From Actinomycetota bacterium (GTDB lineage Bacteria; Actinomycetota; Actinomycetes; Nanopelagicales; Nanopelagicaceae), in NCBI GenBank assembly GCA_009706135.1, contig WLRX01000004.1, forward strand, positions 1 to 21,719: a DNA stretch of 21,719 bases. The letters run 5' to 3'. The notes under the pieces are model-generated. The model was not told the origin of the DNA. It saw only the letters and a list, made by a program, of their open reading frames with translations, and did not search any database. Both the position numbers and the translations under genes were made by a program. This document shows, in pieces, positions 2,850-20,782 of this stretch. The number at the start of each line of letters is the position of its first letter. Within the stretch, counting starts at the first letter, position 1.

Positions 2850-4157
2850 ATGTCCGACATAACTCCAACTCCTCTTTCAATTCCATCATCTGCAGCATCT
2901 GCACTCATTGGTGATCCAGCAAAATTTGGATATGTAGCACCAGATGGAACGGTCTTCGTTAAAACTTCAGCAGGTGATAAAGCAGTTGGTTCGTACCCGG
3001 GAAAAAGCGCGGAAGAAGCACTTGCTTACTTTGTAAGAAAATTTGAAGCTGTTGCATCAGAGATTGCACTCCTTGCTGCACGCATTACAAGTGGCGCGAT
3101 GGTGCCTTCCGATGCCATGGCATCTGTTAAAAAATTACGGGATCAAGTAAAAGAAGTTAATGCAGTCGGGGATCTTGAGGCTCTTGCAAACTCTGTCGAG
3201 CAACTTGAACCCCTTATTGAGGGCCATCGCGGTGCCTATGAAGCAAAAAAAGCTGCAGCCGAAGCTGAAAAATCTGCCAAGCGTGCTCAAGTTTTGGTTG
3301 AAAAGGAAAAGATTGTCGTTGAAGCTGAATCTCTTGCTCTATCTGAAAGTTGGAAAACCACGGGTGATCGCCTCAAAGAATTACTTGCTGAGTGGAAATC
3401 TGCGCCTCGTTTAGATAAGAAAACTGATGCGGATTTGTGGAAGCGATTTTCAGCCTCTCGTAACAAATTCGATAAGCGACGTAGGACTCACTTTGCCAAT
3501 TTGGAAGCAACCACTTCTATTGTCACAGATGCAAAGAAGAATTTAGTTACTCAGGCAGAACAATTGGCCACTTCAACTGAGTGGGTTCCAACTGCTAAGG
3601 CATTTAAATCACTGATGGATCAGTGGAAGGCGGCTGGACGAGGCAAGCCATCTGAAGATGCAAAACTATGGGCGCGATTTAAAAAAGCTCAAGACCAATT
3701 CTTCCAAGCTAAGAGCGCTGACTTAGAAAAACGTGAAATAACAATGGGTACAAACTTGGCAAAGCGTGAAGAATTGATCATTCAAATTGAAGCACTTCTT
3801 CCTTTCACCGATGTGAAAGATGCTAAAAACAAATTTAGAGATCTTTCCCGCTCATGGGAGAAAATTGGAATGACTAATCGCGATAAGCGATCAGCGCTAG
3901 ATGCTCGCGTAAGTGTCGTAGAAGATGCGATTAAGTCAGCTGAAGCGGAAATTTGGCGTAAGACCGATCCTGCGGCTAAAGCACGCGCTGCAGAAGTTGT
4001 AGCTCAACTTCAAGGTGCAATCGATAATTATGAAAAAATTGCGGCTAAAGCAACAACAGCCGGTAATACCAAAAAAGCAACTGAGGCTATCGAATCAGCT
4101 GCCGCAAGACGTATCTGGCTAGAAGAAGCAGAGAAATCCCTGGCTGAATTTAGTTAA
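2850..4157 (+). CDS. DUF349 domain protein, coiled-coil rich
   Basis: A 435-residue, highly charged, largely alpha-helical protein. A short globular N-terminus (about residues 16-75, with DPAKFGYVAPDGTVFVKT) resembles the usual start of actinobacterial DUF349 proteins. It is followed by an Ala/Glu/Lys-rich helix and three DUF349-type helical repeats, each marked by a W-K or S-W core: WKTTGDRLKELLAEWKSA (about 168-218), WVPTAKAFKSLMDQWKAAG (about 245-295), and a third around DAKNKFRDLSRSWEKIG (about 325-375). The molecular function is not established. The ATG at 2850 follows GAAGGGA at 5-nt spacing. There is no signal peptide or membrane segment, so it is probably cytoplasmic. It is the only plus-strand gene in the left 17 kb. 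It converges on rel with stops overlapping by 4 bp, so its transcript must read into the rel antisense strand unless it ends inside its own coding region. DUF349 genes next to rel are, as I recall, common in actinobacteria. Confidence 0.9.
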   Translation: MSDITPTPLSIPSSAASALIGDPAKFGYVAPDGTVFVKTSAGDKAVGSYPGKSAEEALAYFVRKFEAVASEIALLAARITSGAMVPSDAMASVKKLRDQVKEVNAVGDLEALANSVEQLEPLIEGHRGAYEAKKAAAEAEKSAKRAQVLVEKEKIVVEAESLALSESWKTTGDRLKELLAEWKSAPRLDKKTDADLWKRFSASRNKFDKRRRTHFANLEATTSIVTDAKKNLVTQAEQLATSTEWVPTAKAFKSLMDQWKAAGRGKPSEDAKLWARFKKAQDQFFQAKSADLEKREITMGTNLAKREELIIQIEALLPFTDVKDAKNKFRDLSRSWEKIGMTNRDKRSALDARVSVVEDAIKSAEAEIWRKTDPAAKARAAEVVAQLQGAIDNYEKIAAKATTAGNTKKATEAIESAAARRIWLEEAEKSLAEFS

Positions 4158-6316
4158 TTATTGGTTGTTCGATAAACGTCGTACACGCCTTCAACTGATC
4201 TAACCGCAGTTAAAACCGCATCCAAATGTGTGGCATCTGCCATTTCAAATGTAAATCGTGAGATTGCAACACGATCTTTTGTGGTGCTTACTGCTGCGCT
4301 GAGGATGTTCACTTGTTGTTCGGATAAAGTGCGAGTCACATCAGCAAGCAAACGTGCTCTATCTAGCGCTTCAACCTGAATGTTTACCAAGAATAAGCTT
4401 GAGGCACCTTCTAGCCACTTCACCCCAACAATTCGATCATTCTGGTGTGTGTGTAGATCATAAGCATTAACGCAATCAGAACGGTGGACAGATATTCCAC
4501 TTCCACGAGTAATAAATCCCATGATTGCGTCCCCTGGAACTGGAGTACAACAGCGCGCAAGCTTGACTAACACATCATCAATTCCTTCGACCTTGATTGC
4601 GCTGCTAGAACGTTTAGCAATAGGTGCTCCCCCAGGAACAAAATCCATTGTGGGTTCGGGGTGAGAATCTTCAACGCCCATAAATTGAACTAACTTGTCA
4701 ATGATCGCAGCCGATGACACATGTCCATCGCCAACGGCTGAATACAAGGCAGAAATATCCGGATACCTCAGCTCGTGTGCAAGTTCAAGTAATGCATGGC
4801 CTGCAAAGATTTTTTGTAAAGGTAGTCCTGCTTTGCGCATTTGGCGTGCAATAGATTCGCGACCCGCTTCAATTGCTTCTTCGCGGCGCTCTTTGCTAAA
4901 CCACGCTTTGATCTTTGATCGAGCACGTGGACTCTTAACGAAATTGAGCCAGTCGCGAGATGGCGCCGCTGACTCACTCTTATTAGTTACAACTTCAACA
5001 ACATCACCGTTGTTCAAGCGAGTATCAAGTGGAATCAAACGTCCATTTACCTTTGCTCCAGCACACCTATTGCCCACATCTGTGTGAACTGAGTAAGCAA
5101 AATCAACAGGCGTCGAACCACCTGGAAGCGCCACAACGCTTCCCTTAGGTGTGAAAACGAAGACCTCAGGAGTTCCAAGATCGAATCTAAGCGCTTCCAA
5201 AAATTCTGATGGATCTTCTGTCTCTTTTTGCCACTCATGTAATTGTCGCAACCAGAGCATTTGCGGAGAAGAAGAATTCGTATCAGTGCCATGCTTATAT
5301 TTCCAGTGAGCAGCGATTCCAAATTCCGCGCGTGAATGCATTTCAAAGGTACGAATCTGAATTTCAATTGCTTTACCATCAGGTCCAATAACAGTGGTGT
5401 GAAGTGATTGATACAAATTAAATTTTGGCATGGCAATGTAATCTTTAAATCTACCCGGCACGGGTGACCAACGGGCGTGGATTGAACCGAGTACTGCGTA
5501 GCAATCTTTCACATCATTTACTAAGACACGGATACCAACTAAATCATAAATATCGTTAAAATCGCGTCCACGAACAACCATCTTTTGATAGACGCTAAAG
5601 AAATGCTTCTTTCGTCCAGTAACAGTTGCTTCGACAGAATCTTTGGCAAGGTCCTCTTCTACATCCTTAATTACTTCAGCAGTTAACGCATCGCGAGAAG
5701 GACTGCGCTCTGCAACCAATCTTGAAATTTCCTCAAACTTCTTTGGCTCTAGAACTGCAAATGACAGATCTTCTAATTCCCACTTCATTGCATTCATACC
5801 GAGCCTGTGCGCAAGGGGGGCATAAATATCTAATGTTTCCCGAGCTTTGCGTTCGGCGCTTTGTGGATCCACATGCTTCCAGGTGCGGGCATTGTGCAGA
5901 CGATCTGCCAACTTAATAACAAGAACTCTGATATCTCGGGACATGGCAACGACCATTTTGCGCACGGTCTCTGCCTCGGCAGTTGGTCCGTAACTTAATT
6001 TATCTAACTTTGTTACTCCATCGACTAGGGATGATATTTCATCACCGAAGTCACTTTTTAATTGAGTTAATGAATAAGGCGTATCTTCAACTGTGTCATG
6101 CAAAAGCGCCGCAATAATCGTTGAATCATTAAGCCCTAACTCAGAGAGAATCTGCGCCACGGCAACGGGATGAGTTATGTATTCATCGCCTGACTTACGA
6201 AGTTGTCCTAAGTGAGCTTTCTTTGCAACTTCGTAGGCCTTTTCAACCTTCGCCACGTCAGCCTTTGAATCATGCTCCTGTAAAGAGCTAATCAAAGGTT
6301 GTAAAAGTGTGTCCAT
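4154..6316 (-). CDS. rel: Bifunctional (p)ppGpp synthetase/hydrolase (RSH)
   Basis: A 720-residue long RSH protein that makes and degrades the alarmone (p)ppGpp in the stringent response. The N-terminal HD hydrolase has H49 (YITHP), H73-D74 and E77-D78 (LLHDTVEDT), all intact. The synthetase domain (about 235-345) contains IYDLVGIRVLV, R289-F-K-D292 and EIQIRT (318-323). The RFKD sequence is the RxKD form found in bifunctional Rel enzymes rather than the ExDD of RelA. A TGS domain (about 383-446), a zinc-finger/RIS segment with LARCCTPVPGD, and a C-terminal ACT domain (about 645-718) follow. It starts with ATG 17 bp after secF and ends with TAA sharing bases with the DUF349 stop. The apt gene that usually separates secF and rel in actinobacteria is absent here. 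The start has no clear Shine-Dalgarno sequence. Confidence 0.97.
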   Translation of the reverse strand: MDTLLQPLISSLQEHDSKADVAKVEKAYEVAKKAHLGQLRKSGDEYITHPVAVAQILSELGLNDSTIIAALLHDTVEDTPYSLTQLKSDFGDEISSLVDGVTKLDKLSYGPTAEAETVRKMVVAMSRDIRVLVIKLADRLHNARTWKHVDPQSAERKARETLDIYAPLAHRLGMNAMKWELEDLSFAVLEPKKFEEISRLVAERSPSRDALTAEVIKDVEEDLAKDSVEATVTGRKKHFFSVYQKMVVRGRDFNDIYDLVGIRVLVNDVKDCYAVLGSIHARWSPVPGRFKDYIAMPKFNLYQSLHTTVIGPDGKAIEIQIRTFEMHSRAEFGIAAHWKYKHGTDTNSSSPQMLWLRQLHEWQKETEDPSEFLEALRFDLGTPEVFVFTPKGSVVALPGGSTPVDFAYSVHTDVGNRCAGAKVNGRLIPLDTRLNNGDVVEVVTNKSESAAPSRDWLNFVKSPRARSKIKAWFSKERREEAIEAGRESIARQMRKAGLPLQKIFAGHALLELAHELRYPDISALYSAVGDGHVSSAAIIDKLVQFMGVEDSHPEPTMDFVPGGAPIAKRSSSAIKVEGIDDVLVKLARCCTPVPGDAIMGFITRGSGISVHRSDCVNAYDLHTHQNDRIVGVKWLEGASSLFLVNIQVEALDRARLLADVTRTLSEQQVNILSAAVSTTKDRVAISRFTFEMADATHLDAVLTAVRSVEGVYDVYRTTNN

Positions 6317-14994: not shown

Positions 14995-16182
14995 TTATGC
15001 ATCCCCTCGTTGATCGCGTCCAATAAATCTGCTCCATGCTCGATTCTCTGATGCGAGTCTAACTTTTTCTCCGCTTACCAATGACATTTCATAGATTGAA
15101 AATATCTGATCCGCTACAACTTTCCAATCAAATTGCTGGGCGTGTTTTTTGCCTGCTTTTCCAAGTGCAATTCTTCGCTCATCATCTCGCAATAAATCAA
15201 TGACCCGTTTAGCCAAATCCGTCGAACTTTCAGATTCGAATAATTCGCCGAACTGACCATGATTTAAGAGTGAATCAAATGCAGGTATGTCACTTGCAAC
15301 AACTGTGGCGCCTCCTGCAAGGGCCTCTGCCAAAATAATTCCAAATGACTCTCCCCCTGTATTTGGTGCAATATAGAGTGAGATCGAAGCTAGAAAATTT
15401 GCTTTATCCTGTTCAGAAATTTTTCCAAGGAAGGTAAATCTAGATCGCATTTGCGTATCGATGGAGTCAATAACATCTTTAGTATCACCAGGTCCTGCGA
15501 CAAAAACTTGAACATTTGGTGCGAATCTTGAAATAATTGGGAGGGCATCAACTAAAACTGAAAGACCTTTACGAGGTTCTTCAAATCGTCCGATGAAACC
15601 CAATGTATTTCCCTGCCACTGCGATTGTGCGACACCATCTCTATATCGATCGGCGTAAATTCCATTAGGTATTACAACCGCGTCAGTTTCGAGGTGTTCA
15701 GTCAATGTTGCACGAGCTGCTTCGCTAACGGCTATGCGCGCAGATAATTTCTCAATGACTGGTTCTAAAATAGGACCAATTGCAAAGATTGCTTTTTGTC
15801 TCTTTGCTGCTGCGTGAAAGGTTCCAACCAATGGCCCTTCTGCCGCCCAGCACGCCAATAATGAAATAGAAGGAATGGCGGGCTCGTGTAAATGAAGAAT
15901 GTCGAAATCACCTTGTGATATCCATTGGCGAACACGAGCAAAAGCAATTGGTCCGAATAGAACTCGCGCTACAGCCCCGTTATAGGGAATCGCAATTGGT
16001 TTGCCCGCACTTGTTACGTAACTTGGGATTTTGGATTCATCAATAACTGGTGCCAATACAGAAATATCATGGCCTGCAGCAATTAAATATTCAGCCAAAT
16101 CACGCACGTGATTTTGTACACCACCTGGTGTATCCCATCCGTATGGACAGACTATGCCAATTTTGAGCGAACGTGTAAGCAT
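14995..16182 (-). CDS. pimA: Phosphatidylinositol mannosyltransferase PimA
   Basis: A 395-residue GT4-family GT-B glycosyltransferase that adds the first mannose from GDP-mannose to phosphatidylinositol at the cytoplasmic face of the membrane. It aligns along its length with M. tuberculosis PimA as I recall it: VCPYGWDTPGGVQNHV, IPYNGAVARVLFGP, GDFDILHLHEPAIPS, GTFHA (H123), GFIGRFEEPRKG (R199 and K205, donor phosphate contacts) and APNTGGESFGIILAEALAGG (E278/E286). An excellent AAGGAG site precedes the ATG, 9 nt away. The start overlaps the acyltransferase stop by 1 bp (TAATG). The pgsA-acyltransferase-pimA neighbours make PIM synthesis the clear role. Confidence 0.95.
   Translation of the reverse strand: MLTRSLKIGIVCPYGWDTPGGVQNHVRDLAEYLIAAGHDISVLAPVIDESKIPSYVTSAGKPIAIPYNGAVARVLFGPIAFARVRQWISQGDFDILHLHEPAIPSISLLACWAAEGPLVGTFHAAAKRQKAIFAIGPILEPVIEKLSARIAVSEAARATLTEHLETDAVVIPNGIYADRYRDGVAQSQWQGNTLGFIGRFEEPRKGLSVLVDALPIISRFAPNVQVFVAGPGDTKDVIDSIDTQMRSRFTFLGKISEQDKANFLASISLYIAPNTGGESFGIILAEALAGGATVVASDIPAFDSLLNHGQFGELFESESSTDLAKRVIDLLRDDERRIALGKAGKKHAQQFDWKVVADQIFSIYEMSLVSGEKVRLASENRAWSRFIGRDQRGDA
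15002..15008 (-). promoter_or_regulatory. Ribosome binding site inside the pimA 3' end
   Basis: GAGGGGA lies 7 nt before the GTG start at 14994. It supports the non-ATG start of the small membrane protein and lies within the last codons of pimA. Confidence 0.7.
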
Positions 16183-17066
16183 TACATTCGCTCCTTAAAA
16201 TCTTCATCAATCCAAATTCTTTGAAGCATGTGCCAATCCTGCGGAAATTCAATAATGCCCCGGGCGAAGTTATCAGCAGATTTTTGAACAAGGAATGAAA
16301 CTTTTTCGTCTTGCGTTCCTTCACTCGGAACTTTGATTTCATCGAATGTAATATGAATCCCGCGCTCTGTATAATTAACAAACGCCGTCAGCAGGATCGC
16401 ACCCGTCTTTATTGCTAACACTGCCGGTCCAGCTGGCATACGTGCAGGGTGCTCAAAGAAACTAACATCTACTCCCGATTTAGATAGATCGCGATCTGAA
16501 ACAAGTGCTACGAGATGACCTTCTCTTAACCTTTGCGCCAACTTGGCGATAGATCTGGAATCCAAGGCCAGAACTTCCATTCCCATTTTCTGTCTGTAAC
16601 GAAGAAATTCGAGAAACAATCTTTCAGGCTTGAGGCGCTCGGCAACCGTCACAAGATGTATCCCTTTGAGGCAGAAATATGCACCGGCGTGATCCCAGTT
16701 TCCAGCGTGGGGTAGAGAAACAATTACTCCACGTGCACTTGCGATCCCATCTAGCAGTAAATTTTCTCTCGTCACGGTAACTGTGGAATTTATGCGCTCT
16801 TTATCCCAATTTGGAAATCTAAAGGTGTCACACCAATATCTCATGTATGAAGACATGGCATCTTCAAGAAGTGCCTGCATTTGTGATTCTGTGGCTTCTG
16901 GCTTTACTCGCATCAAATTACTTCGCAAACGCGCAACGCTCTTTGGATTGCGCTTAACTAAAAATCGTGCACCACGATCAAATAATGAGTACGCAAAAGT
17001 TTCAGGCAGCTTACGAAATATCTTCCAGGCGAAGATATATGCCCACCCAACCAGACCTTCTTTCAT
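16182..17066 (-). CDS. PIM acyltransferase (PatA-like, LpxL/HtrB family)
   Basis: A 294-residue membrane-associated lysophospholipid-type acyltransferase. Catalytic motif H120-x4-D125 sits in LPHAGNWDHAG, followed by LVSDRDLSKSGVDVSFF (the second conserved block), ARMPAGPAVLA, and a C-terminal PQDWHMLQRIWIDEDF. These are the hallmarks of the Rv2611c (PatA) group, which transfers an acyl chain to the mannose of PIM1/PIM2. It sits directly between pgsA (1-bp gap) and pimA (1-bp overlap), which favours the PIM role over the lipid A role of the wider family. The ATG at 17064-17066 has no recognisable ribosome site, so it may depend on coupling to pgsA. Confidence 0.92.
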   Translation of the reverse strand: MKEGLVGWAYIFAWKIFRKLPETFAYSLFDRGARFLVKRNPKSVARLRSNLMRVKPEATESQMQALLEDAMSSYMRYWCDTFRFPNWDKERINSTVTVTRENLLLDGIASARGVIVSLPHAGNWDHAGAYFCLKGIHLVTVAERLKPERLFLEFLRYRQKMGMEVLALDSRSIAKLAQRLREGHLVALVSDRDLSKSGVDVSFFEHPARMPAGPAVLAIKTGAILLTAFVNYTERGIHITFDEIKVPSEGTQDEKVSFLVQKSADNFARGIIEFPQDWHMLQRIWIDEDFKERM

Positions 17067-17067
17067 A

Positions 17068-17661
17068 TTAAATCGCGCGTTTTACAATAATTAATCGTTG
17101 AAAAGTTGTTACTACGCCAAGTATCGCTAATGCCCATGCGCTTATCGAAAGTGCATATGGCACCCCTAGTCCATGAAATCCTGTTCCAACCAAAACAATG
17201 ACTGCTCGCTCTGTGCGCTCGGCAATACCACCGCTGCATACGATATTCATGCTCTCAGCTTTTGCTCGGATGTATGGAATTAGCATGCCCGTAACAAGGC
17301 ATACCAAATAAATTATTGAAAGATGATTATCCTCTTGGATCAAAAAGATTGCTACACCACAGAGAACTGCTGAATCAGAAATTCTGTCCACTGTTGAATC
17401 TAAAAACGCACCCCATTTGCTTGCGCCGGCAGAACTAATACGTGCCATCGCTCCATCGAAGAGATCGCTGAGCATGAAAAAACTAATTACAAGCGTTGCT
17501 ACAAAAAAATCACCTTGAGGGAAGAAATAGAACGCACTGATAACAACGCATATAGCTCCTATTGCAGTAACTGCATTTGGTGTTAATCCGATTCGTAGGA
17601 AGAATCGGGCCACCGGAGAAATAATTCGCGTGACCGCAGGTTTTAAAACTTCGCTAATCAT
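17068..17661 (-). CDS. pgsA: Phosphatidylinositol phosphate synthase (CDP-alcohol phosphatidyltransferase)
   Basis: A 197-residue integral membrane enzyme of the CDP-alcohol phosphatidyltransferase family that joins CDP-diacylglycerol to inositol phosphate, giving the PI needed by PimA. The signature DxxDGxxAR...GxxxDxxxD is complete (DLFDGAMAR, then GAFLDSTVD). Several hydrophobic segments follow, with YIRAKAESMN and RTERAVIVLVGTG. The open frame extends to TTG 17706, but the ATG at 17659-17661 gives MISEVLKPAVTRIISPVARF, which fits the family N-terminus. A TAATAT -10 lies 7 nt upstream of this ATG, so the message is probably leaderless. ATGs at 17697 and 17670 are alternatives. Assignment as PIP synthase rather than PG-phosphate synthase rests on the neighbours. 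Confidence 0.93.
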   Translation of the reverse strand: MISEVLKPAVTRIISPVARFFLRIGLTPNAVTAIGAICVVISAFYFFPQGDFFVATLVISFFMLSDLFDGAMARISSAGASKWGAFLDSTVDRISDSAVLCGVAIFLIQEDNHLSIIYLVCLVTGMLIPYIRAKAESMNIVCSGGIAERTERAVIVLVGTGFHGLGVPYALSISAWALAILGVVTTFQRLIIVKRAI

Positions 17662-17668
17662 TAGGTAC

Positions 17669-17674
17669 ATATTA
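17669..17674 (-). promoter_or_regulatory. Candidate -10 of leaderless pgsA promoter
   Basis: TAATAT on the minus strand ends 7 nt before the A of the pgsA ATG at 17661, the spacing expected if transcription starts at the start codon. No -35 hexamer is evident at 16-18 nt. It shares its first two bases with the -10 of the divergent gene. Confidence 0.5.
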
Positions 17675-17678
17675 GGCT
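17673..17678 (+). promoter_or_regulatory. Candidate -10 of leaderless EF-G-like gene promoter
   Basis: TAGGCT fits TANNNT and ends 7 nt before the GTG start at 17686. TTCGCT at 17650-17655 is a weak -35 candidate at 17-bp spacing. The element mirrors the pgsA -10 around the shared bases 17673-17674. Confidence 0.4.
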
Positions 17679-17685
17679 TAAGGCC

Positions 17686-18270
17686 GTGCCAACTCATAGT
17701 CAGCAACTACGTATCAGCGTGTATGGGCATCCAAGCGCGCAGCCAGAATCTGTGGCCGACCTCTTAGGTGCTACCTACAACAATGATGCCGACGGTTCTG
17801 AAGAGGTGGCGATCTTTGTCATTAATCCAAACACTGGTGTGGATGAAAAAACCGTATCTAATTGGGCAGCCTTAGATGATTTTCAAACTCCTCGATTAAT
17901 TGTTGTGACAAACTTAGAAAGCGGTGAAGCTGATTTCGATGACGCTGTTCTTCTTGCTAATCGACTCTTTGACCAAGTCGTTACGCCCTACTTAGTCTTA
18001 CACGATGATTCAGGTTCACCCTGCGCTCTGATTAGTTTAGAGACTGAAGAGATCATTGATTACACAACTAATCCTTGCACGGTAATTCCCAGCGATCCAG
18101 AACATAAAACCTTGGTAGGTGAATTTGTTGATGAATATAAATCACACATGGCAGTTATGGGCAATGAATCTTTTGCGGCTGGATTACTTTTCCCTGCAAT
18201 TCCGGTGTGGATAGAAAGAAATATTGGCGTCGATATTGTTAAGCATTACCTAGACGAAATTAATCACTAA
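17686..18270 (+). CDS. Degenerate EF-G-like GTPase-domain protein, function unknown
   Basis: A 194-residue acidic protein with no signal peptide or membrane segment. From residue 41 it can be aligned by eye to the G domain of elongation factor G: VAIFVINPNTGVDEKTVSNW matches EF-G's AIVVFD..QGVEPQSETVW; TPRLIVVTNLESGEADFDDA (68-87) matches VPRIAFANKMDKTGADL; and LLFPAIP...N-I-G-V-D...HYLDEI (167-191) matches the end of the domain, TPVFLGSALKNKGVQ...DYLP. The GTP-binding motifs are missing. The P-loop position (GHPSAQPESVADLL, 14-27) lacks GKT/S, the DTPGH switch II segment is deleted, and NKxD has become T75-N-L-E78. It is therefore probably not a GTPase. It starts with GTG (17686-17688), diverges from pgsA, and its 3' end overlaps the HIT gene by 11 bp. 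Gene confidence is high; the EF-G relation is inference. Confidence 0.72.
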   Translation: MPTHSQQLRISVYGHPSAQPESVADLLGATYNNDADGSEEVAIFVINPNTGVDEKTVSNWAALDDFQTPRLIVVTNLESGEADFDDAVLLANRLFDQVVTPYLVLHDDSGSPCALISLETEEIIDYTTNPCTVIPSDPEHKTLVGEFVDEYKSHMAVMGNESFAAGLLFPAIPVWIERNIGVDIVKHYLDEINH

Positions 18271-18793
18271 CCCATCCTGTTGCTAGGTCGTTACGTGTTT
18301 GGGCCAATAACTGTGGTAATACTTTAGTCTGACCAATAATCGGCATAAAATTGGCATCTCCGCCCCAACGAGGGACAACGTGTTGGTGAATGTGATCTGC
18401 TACTCCGGCACCCGATAACGCTCCTTGATTCATTCCAAGATTAAATCCTGCCGCATTGGATACCTTGCGCAGAGTTTTCATTGCTTGTGCGCTTAAGAAT
18501 GAAATTTCATTGCGTTCGATTTCGGATAAATCTGTTAAATCAGCAACGTGGCGATTTGCACACACAAGTACATGTCCTGCGTTGTATGGGTACAAATTCA
18601 TGACGACGTAAGCGGTTTGACCGCGATGAACAATGAGTCCTTCTTCATCACTAAAGGATGGAATTGTGCAGAAAGGGCATGCAACGCTATTTCCCTCTAG
18701 GGGTCTGTTTTCGCCTTTTAAATAATCCATGCGATGTGGAGCCCACAACCGTGACCACGCATCTGGAATACCTGCTCCACCATCTGAATGCAT
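18260..18793 (-). CDS. HIT-family hydrolase/phosphorylase (Ap4A phosphorylase-like)
   Basis: A 177-residue histidine-triad protein. The active-site motif is H134-I-H136-Q-H138-V-V, preceded by NAGHVLVCANRHVADLTDL and GFNLGMNQG. A CPFC pair (C39, C42) near the N-terminus could hold zinc, as in many actinobacterial members. The extended N-terminus with SRLWAPHRMDYLKGE is typical of the Rv2613c group, which has been described as a diadenosine tetraphosphate phosphorylase. It follows thrS with no gap (TAA then ATG), an order conserved in M. tuberculosis. Aminoacyl-tRNA synthetases make Ap4A as a by-product, so the pairing makes functional sense, but this is inference. Its stop overlaps the 3' end of the opposite-strand EF-G-like gene. 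Confidence 0.92.
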   Translation of the reverse strand: MHSDGGAGIPDAWSRLWAPHRMDYLKGENRPLEGNSVACPFCTIPSFSDEEGLIVHRGQTAYVVMNLYPYNAGHVLVCANRHVADLTDLSEIERNEISFLSAQAMKTLRKVSNAAGFNLGMNQGALSGAGVADHIHQHVVPRWGGDANFMPIIGQTKVLPQLLAQTRNDLATGWVSD

Positions 18794-20782
18794 TTAAACC
18801 TGAATTCGCTTCGTGACCGCGTCTTTAATTTCTTTGATTGCATCGGCAATAGGAACACCATTTTTCTGTTCACCATTTCTATATCTAAATGAAACAGCGC
18901 CAGCCTTTTGATCTTCTTCTCCGGCAATAACCATAAATGGAATTTTTTGCATTTGTGCGTTACGAACCTTTTTCTGCATGCGATCATCAGATGCATCGAG
19001 TTCGGCGCGAATGCCTGCTTTTTTCATCTGCGCCATGACATCAGCTAAGTAATCAGCAAATGCGTCAGCCACAGGAATACCAACTGCCTGAAGGGGTGCA
19101 AGCCACGGTGGGAACGCACCTGAGTAATGCTCTGTTAACACACCAAAGAAACGTTCAATAGAACCAAATAGTGCGCGATGAATCATTACGGGACGTTGAC
19201 GTGTTCCATCTGCTGCTGAGTATTCGAGTTCAAATCGCTGCGGCAATTGGAAATCAACTTGGATGGTCGACATCTGCCATGTGCGACCAATCGCATCTTT
19301 TGCTTGCACAGAGATCTTTGGTCCATAAAACGCTGCGCCACCTTCATCTAAAACAAGTTCCAATTTTTGCGCTTCTGCTGCTTTGCGCAGTGCTTCCGTT
19401 GCTTCTATCCAATCCTTATCTTCTCCCACAGATTTCTCTGGGTTGCGAGTAGATAGTTCGAGATAAAAATCATGAAGACCATAATCGCGTAACAAATTAA
19501 GCACGAAAGTTAAAAGTGAATCGAGCTCGGCAGGCATCTGCTCTTTTGTGCAGTAGATATGCGCATCATCTTGAGTGAAACCGCGGGCACGAGTAAGTCC
19601 ATGCATTACACCGGATTTTTCATATCGGTAGACAGTTCCAAATTCGAATAAGCGAAGGGGTAATTCGCGATAAGAACGTCCACGAGCACGGAAAATCAAA
19701 TTATGAAACGGGCAGTTCATAGGCTTCATGTAGTACTGCTGTCCAGCCTTTTTAATCGTTCCATCGGGATGATGTTCTTCGTCCAAAATCATTGGTGGAT
19801 ACATACCTTCTGAATACCAATCCAAGTGACCAGATGTTTCAAAGAGTGCGGCTTTTGTTAAGTGCGGTGAATAAACAAATTCATAACCTTCTTCTTCATG
19901 GCGAATGCGCGAATAATCTTCCATCGCGCGGCGCACAATGCCACCTTTAGGGTGAAATACAGCTAAGCCCGAACCAATTTCTTCTGGGAAAGAAAAAAGG
20001 TCTAATTCATTACCAAGTCGACGGTGATCACGTTTTTCGGCCTCTGCTAATAATTCAAGGTGAGTATTTAACTGATCCTGTGTAGGCCACGCTGTCCCGT
20101 AAATTCTTTGCAGCATCGGATTTTTTTCAGAACCTCGCCAATATGCTGCAGCGCTTCTCATTAATTTAAAGGCAGGAATATGTTTCGTAGATGGCAGATG
20201 TGGACCTCGACATAAATCACTCCACACCGCTTGTCCATCGCGGCCTAAATTGTCATAAATGGTTAGCTCTGCCCCGCCAACTTCAACACTTGCTTCATCA
20301 CCGGCGCCAGATTTCAAGCCAATAAGTTCACACTTATACGGCTCGTGAGCTAGTTCCTTGAGAGCATCTTTTTCTGTTGTTACACGTCGCTTAAACCTCT
20401 GACCATCTTTAATAATTTTGCGCATAGCAGATTCGATTTTTTCAAAATCATCTGGGTTAAATGGACGCTCAGGATCAAAGTCATAGTAAAAACCATCTGT
20501 AATCGGCGGTCCAATTCCTAACCTAGTTCCAGCAAAAACACTCTGCACAGCTTGTGCCATCACGTGAGCGGTTGAGTGACGAAGTACCGCTAGTCCTTCG
20601 GGAGAAGAAATCGAAACAGAATCAATGACATCTCCAGAAACAATGTCGCTCCATAGATCCTTGAGTTCGCCATTTATTTTGCAAACAACCACATCTTTAT
20701 GTTCAGCAAAAATATGAGTTGGCTTTTGATCTGCCGCAACATTGACAGCAGCGCCATCAACGATGATTGAGAGCTCGGACAT
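18794..20782 (-). CDS. thrS: Threonyl-tRNA synthetase
   Basis: A 662-residue, full-length ThrRS. Domains in order: an N-terminal TGS domain (about 1-62); the editing domain with HSTAH (H69, H73) and DLCRGPH (C191, H195), which removes mischarged serine; the class II catalytic core with [10 protein letters not shown] (zinc ligand C357), [30 protein letters not shown] (H408) and [15 protein letters not shown]; and a C-terminal anticodon-binding domain (about 560-662). All key residues are present. It begins 4 bp after pabC and abuts the HIT gene. No T-box leader is possible, because there is no untranslated region upstream. Confidence 0.98.

Follow-up and report, generated by a model that had tools for sequence, protein, structure and literature searches.

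A 21,719-nucleotide stretch of a Nanopelagicaceae genome (assembly GCA_009706135.1, contig WLRX01000004.1; hereafter the window) raises the question of why a relative of translation elongation factor G (EF-G) should be preserved once its GTP-handling parts have been stripped away. The gene concerned is an open reading frame (ORF) on the plus strand (17686..18270) that starts with GTG and encodes a protein of 194 amino acids (aa), identified here by its ORF call, profile matches and a structure model. An original prediction, made from the sequence, described it as an EF-G-like pseudo-GTPase lodged between thrS–HIT and pgsA. There is hardly any doubt that the gene is instead orthologous to EF-G2 of actinobacteria, has shrunk in place and is held under strong purifying selection, and its identity throughout the Nanopelagicaceae as an EF-G2-derived, strongly conserved pseudo-GTPase free of GTP motifs is close to certain. 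This small protein of common freshwater bacteria probably performs a GTP-free job, perhaps at the ribosome.

The motifs read as the scaffold of an EF-G G domain (GVDEKTVSNW, PRLIVVTNLESGEADF and FPAIPVWIERNIGVDIVKHYL) are all present in the product of the ORF. The NCBIfam EF-G2 model NF009377 matches residues 40–144 at profile positions 103–207 (E = 2.4e-14), with a score of 52.7 bits that lies below the curated full-length cut-off of 890 bits, and profile–profile comparison with full-length EF-G2 returned a probability of 99.8 (E = 2.3e-28 over 155 columns). The Pfam GTP_EFTU model remained sub-threshold (E = 0.096; 12.7 bits versus a cut-off of 26.5), and among PDB sequences the family profile matched 9k0z best (E = 2.1e-17). 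The predicted structure is a confident fold that retains the G-domain core of translational GTPases. Neither of these two checks, both named with the original prediction, refuted it: a translational GTPase origin is upheld, but specifically from EF-G2, by NF009377 and profile–profile comparison, and not from a generic EF-G or Tet(M).

Relative to EF-G2, domains II–V are gone, the P-loop motif has disappeared along with both switches, and the G′ subdomain is shorter by about 24 residues. It begins with β1 and a P-loop remnant (residues 10–20, 17713..17745) in which GHPSAQP aligns to GHSGSGKT of EF-G2. Residues 28–40 (17767..17805) form a junction from which, by alignment and model secondary structure, the EF-G2 segments that we take to be switch I, β2, β3, switch II (DxxG) and α2 are missing. 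Profile–profile comparison and the model then place β4–α3–β5 at residues 41–74 (17806..17907), followed in the sequence by a degenerate G4 motif, TNLE, in the NKxD place (residues 75–78, 17908..17919). A shortened G′ subdomain with a highly conserved TPYLVLHDDxGxPxALI hairpin occupies residues 100–165 (17983..18180; profile–profile, model and conservation) and includes helix A with Glu146, Phe147 and Glu150 (residues 145–158, 18118..18159; alignment and model), the equivalent of the EF-G helix whose glutamates reportedly contact L7/L12. The G domain closes with β6–α5 (residues 169–193, 18190..18264; profile–profile, alignment and model), after which the protein ends, about where domain II of EF-G2 would begin; domains II, III, IV and V are absent by profile–profile comparison and in the model.

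The lack of GKT/S, of a DxxG switch II and of NKxD in the original prediction was confirmed in both sequence and alignment: the 194-aa protein contains neither a Walker A motif nor, where switch II would be, a DxxG, the whole segment being missing from the EF-G2 alignment. The same pattern extends across 364 homologues in 101 clusters below 80% identity, a set from which full-length EF-G2 and the longer g43 forms described below were left out. Walker A (GxxxxGK[ST]) occurred in 0/364 and the G4 motif [NT]KxD in 3/364; at the G4 place, the Lys position was basic in 2% and the Asp position was Asp in 12 of the 101 clusters. D..G strings within the first 60 residues (49/364) are taken as chance, since the segment that would align to switch II is missing. 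Since the P-loop motif and both switches are gone, leaving a compact half G domain and G′, normal GTP handling by the reduced protein is very unlikely. Despite the loss of Walker A, the P-loop remnant shows the pattern GHxSAxP, with the first Gly kept in all 91 clusters having the position (97% in a second alignment) and Ser17 in 75 of 92. One source gives several 191-aa relatives (e.g. P0145, P0148 and P0158) the name 'translation elongation factor EF-G', which misleads, as these proteins have no GTP motifs.

Gene order was compared across 40 fetched stretches, one of which, a 500-base stub (L079), was dropped, leaving 31 family loci and eight from other families. Within the family, the gene was flanked by pgsA and HIT, one on either side, in 28/31 loci; L081 and L082 hold the parts of a single gene divided between two contig ends, and in L069 (genome G187; 3882-4532) HIT is not seen and thrS directly adjoins the pseudo-GTPase gene. 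In all eight loci from other families EF-G2 adjoins pgsA in the same slot, with HIT visible in six and L077 cut by a contig end. Because EF-G2 occupies this slot in other families, the gene is EF-G2 reduced in place; an insertion between HIT and pgsA is rejected, and 'lodged' does not describe how the gene came to be there.

Steps in this reduction survive within the family. In genus g50, represented by one genome (G213, 87% complete), the slot holds a 736-aa EF-G2 with GTP_EFTU, domain 2, III, IV and C-terminal Pfam domains; at 1094 bits it makes G213 the sole genome above the EF-G2 cut-off among 34 family genomes, so a second full-length EF-G2 elsewhere is rejected. The window's own genome (70% complete) has two weaker partial EF-G2 matches elsewhere. 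Canonical EF-G is a separate gene, 32 of the 34 genomes giving an extra full-length match to the EF-G2 model at 480–519 bits; no such match was found in the remaining two, G173 and G187. In genus g43, three genomes carry ORFs of 343–349 aa, and the large protein set holds 19 proteins of this type, 18 of them 316–332 aa long. The g43 form (L052 3381-4430, L053 2981-4012, L054 2162-3193) combines the pseudo-G domain with a full G′ and about 100 extra C-terminal residues, a putative counterpart of EF-G domain V, which they resemble in predicted secondary structure. Short forms in the other aligned genera are mostly 191–234 aa, with two longest-start frames of 267 and 354 aa.

A gene tree of the shared core unites the g50 EF-G2, g43 and short forms in one clade (ultrafast bootstrap, UFBoot, 99), and the g50 EF-G2 already carries LVLH..DGSP.ALI, a sequence shared with g43 and with many short forms but with none of the five other EF-G2 compared. 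Given this grouping, and since neighbouring genes and str-region genes place g50 in the family, re-acquisition of EF-G2 by g50 is less likely. Species trees join g43 with g50 (UFBoot 93 and 83 in two trees), whereas the shared-core gene tree joins g43 with the short forms (support of 99), a result that long branches may distort; approximately unbiased (AU) tests do not reject a clade of g43 and short forms (p = 0.117; in a second test, p = 0.576 against 0.525). A single loss of the GTPase motifs (P-loop and switches) is compatible with these data, and so are two.

Matches to the protein extend across the order. A search for relatives gave matches in 86 of 100 genomes, 55/61 within the genus and 31/39 outside the family, the latter being EF-G2-like frames, nearly all long. 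An order-wide search, with the order drawn as one family, matched 145/151 genomes, 15/15 genera and 101/104 of the more complete genomes. In a set of 80 loci kept out of 112, the named relatives are recorded as Candidatus Planktophila or as Nanopelagicaceae, Ca. Planktophila lacus MMS-21-148 being one, which makes Nanopelagicaceae the probable name of the family. Seven loci (L135, L140, L154, L157, L160, L183 and L184; 36–56% identity to the window protein) come from metagenome-assembled genome records titled Bifidobacterium breve or Streptomyces griseus, titles that look wrong. Eleven family genomes had no match (six in the order-wide search and five more in the relatives search); these were searched for HIT, pgsA and thrS, and their contigs were read. 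In five, contigs break inside the locus (G060 in HIT; G051, G152 and G132 in thrS; G215 about 300 bases upstream of pgsA). In the other six the region is missing from the assembly, because HIT, pgsA and thrS gave only weak matches (at most 38% identity) or none and no true orthologue. No genome showed both flanks without the gene, and true gene loss in the 11 is rejected, their loci being cut or missing but none emptied.

Conservation of the protein sequence points to a kept role, as the original prediction had expected; family-wide conservation and low ratios of nonsynonymous to synonymous substitution (dN/dS) strongly support it. By the Nei–Gojobori method, applied to 126 unique coding sequences of 154 (221 pairs with at least 70% identity), dN/dS was 0–0.112 in the 40 closest pairs, compared with 0.016–0.177 for pgsA, HIT and the acyltransferase gene in the same pairs; given the common ancestry of the pairs and the saturation of some dS values, these are ranges and not independent tests. 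Between the window and genome G014 the pseudo-GTPase is the least conserved protein of the locus (86.5% identity versus 88–98% for six neighbours). No internal stop occurred in any match listed in the relatives and order-wide searches. In G008 (41% complete; C1:267497-268056) the match is split across two frames of one contig, either through a sequencing or assembly error or as a broken copy. Forty positions are conserved at 85% or more, 26 of them within residues 100–167 (35% of the length), and nine of the 40 differ from all six EF-G2 compared, including Thr100, Phe147, Glu150, Tyr151 and Phe163.

What the retained core does may be approached through EF-G2 itself. EF-G2 of M. smegmatis is cited in a passage of PMC3832671 as having no ribosome-dependent GTPase activity, and PDB structure 9k0z is titled as an EF-G2 bound 70S ribosome complex of this species, together suggesting that GTP-free action may be older than the reduction. 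According to a portion of PMC8446442, the G′ glutamates E221, E225 and E228 of M. tuberculosis EF-G1 make contact with L7/L12 and have for the most part been conserved in EF-G2. In the sequence of 7cdw these residues sit on helix A; their aligned equivalents, window residues 153, 157 and 160, are acidic in 69%, 35% and 80% of the 101 clusters, and residues 146 and 150 in 99% and 100%. We infer from these alignments that helix A is the strongest candidate for a kept interface, with bL12 the most likely partner. The protein would act without nucleotide, presenting its G′ face, above all the acidic helix A, to a protein partner already bound by EF-G2; this partner would most probably be bL12, a ribosomal protein of the 50S stalk, through its C-terminal domain. 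The task would then be not to move tRNA but to sit on the stalk or factor-binding region or to modulate it, in the manner of a factor for occupancy, recruitment or stress.

Ribosome or factor binding without GTP hydrolysis, as first suggested for this gene, is plausible, and the specific nucleotide-free mechanism through helix A and bL12 is put forward tentatively, its chances being somewhat below even. Several points weigh against it. The middle contact place is acidic in only 35% of the clusters, and at all three places the window protein itself differs, with Ser153, Val157 and Asn160 (Glu161 lies one off). EF-G domains II and V help to hold the factor on the ribosome, and both are gone here. 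We know of no partner for the highly conserved LVLHDDxGxPxALI hairpin, and bL12 binding is a prediction from alignment. It is possible, if doubtful, that the freshwater family has whittled EF-G2 down to a stalk-binding module at the bL12/factor site. Such a module would be a translation regulator of a new, GTP-free class, and the living intermediates of 736, ~345 and ~194 aa would show where in EF-G2 the real function lies.

The same protein could alternatively be a non-ribosomal scaffold or regulator that binds another translation factor, RNA or the product of a neighbour (thrS, HIT, pgsA, acyltransferase or glycosyltransferase). Stable synteny within the family, the loss of domains II–V and the nine conserved positions unlike EF-G2, which could mark a new interface, favour this possibility. 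However, the synteny is inherited from full-length EF-G2, so it does not point to any tie with these genes, and the conserved part overlaps the EF-G region reported to contact L7/L12, leaving such a role rather unlikely. Regulation of ThrRS or lipid synthesis, an earlier suggestion, finds support in nothing but this inherited position. It is less probable again that the protein is a pseudo-GTPase subunit or competitor of an intact GTPase (EF-G, EF-Tu, LepA or TypA), for example through a sheet edge exposed by the loss of β2–β3. Judging from model secondary structure and G-domain topology, that loss should put β1 at the edge. Septins offer a precedent (PMC10731463), some having become degenerate pseudoGTPases that associate with other septins, but for the present protein such pairing is putative. 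Continued binding of GTP or another phosphate ligand through the altered P-loop would accord with its retained Gly and Ser17, but is very improbable given the counts for Walker A and [NT]KxD and the missing switch segment. A decaying EF-G2 pseudogene, or an ORF kept merely because the HIT–pgsA DNA carries other signals, is rejected as scarcely credible, since the lowest identity of the locus and the split match in G008 stand against dN/dS within the neighbours' range, the lack of internal stops in the listed matches, a confident predicted fold and, in the 11 genomes without a match, a locus that is broken off or absent but never emptied.

The neighbour labels in the original prediction hold. 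The converging HIT-domain gene (18260..18793, minus strand) overlaps the pseudo-GTPase ORF by 11 bp and is followed by thrS, threonine--tRNA ligase (18794..20782, minus strand; TIGR00418, 629.9 bits, above cut-off). The diverging pgsA-type gene (17068..17697, minus strand) has an uncertain start, with candidates ranging from about 25 bp from the ORF to overlapping it, and exceeds the cut-off as a phosphatidylinositol phosphate synthase (best model NF045883, 231.1 bits versus 170), not as TIGR00560 pgsA. Acyltransferase and glycosyltransferase genes lie further along; the name pimA at this locus is putative, and no NCBIfam model reached its cut-off for it. The pseudo-GTPase gene thus lies antisense, between HIT and pgsA, inside a same-strand run of thrS, HIT, pgsA, acyltransferase and glycosyltransferase (14995-20782), possibly a noncontiguous operon, in a layout common to full-length EF-G2 loci. 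The other plus-strand gene, at 2850-4157, was confirmed to carry DUF349.

The function of actinobacterial EF-G2 looks unsettled, given a ribosome-bound structure yet, according to the passage in PMC3832671, no ribosome-dependent GTPase in M. smegmatis. Term searches of the open-access literature found no paper on this small protein or for 9k0z, and the part of PMC5001721 that names fusA2 merely lists it. The family provides a natural deletion series in which the GTPase machinery and tRNA-moving domains were discarded and a core of ~150 residues was kept, with selection on it roughly matching in strength that on neighbouring pgsA. One small protein thereby makes it directly testable which part of EF-G2 matters and whether GTP is needed. 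In addition, bacteria would here supply an example of a pseudo-GTPase that arose from the G domain of a translation factor and was retained throughout a family.

Among known systems, septin pseudo-GTPases keep the G fold and are likewise degenerated GTPases, but they are eukaryotic cytoskeletal proteins of other origin. Bacteroides EF-G2 reportedly works without GTPase activity. This ribosome-bound EF-G paralogue (PDB 8dmf; Foldseek rank 44, E = 1.1e-7) differs in being a full-length factor from a distant lineage. Canonical EF-G (FusA) shares 12–17% identity in structure-match rows, with the window protein lacking its GTP motifs and other domains. The closest counterpart is EF-G2 of actinobacteria (NF009377; FusA2; PDB 9k0z, in which the M. 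smegmatis protein sits on the 70S ribosome). Synteny, the profile match and the gene tree all identify the gene as its orthologue, and from it the protein keeps β1, β4–α3–β5–α4, the G′ hairpins, helix A and β6–α5.
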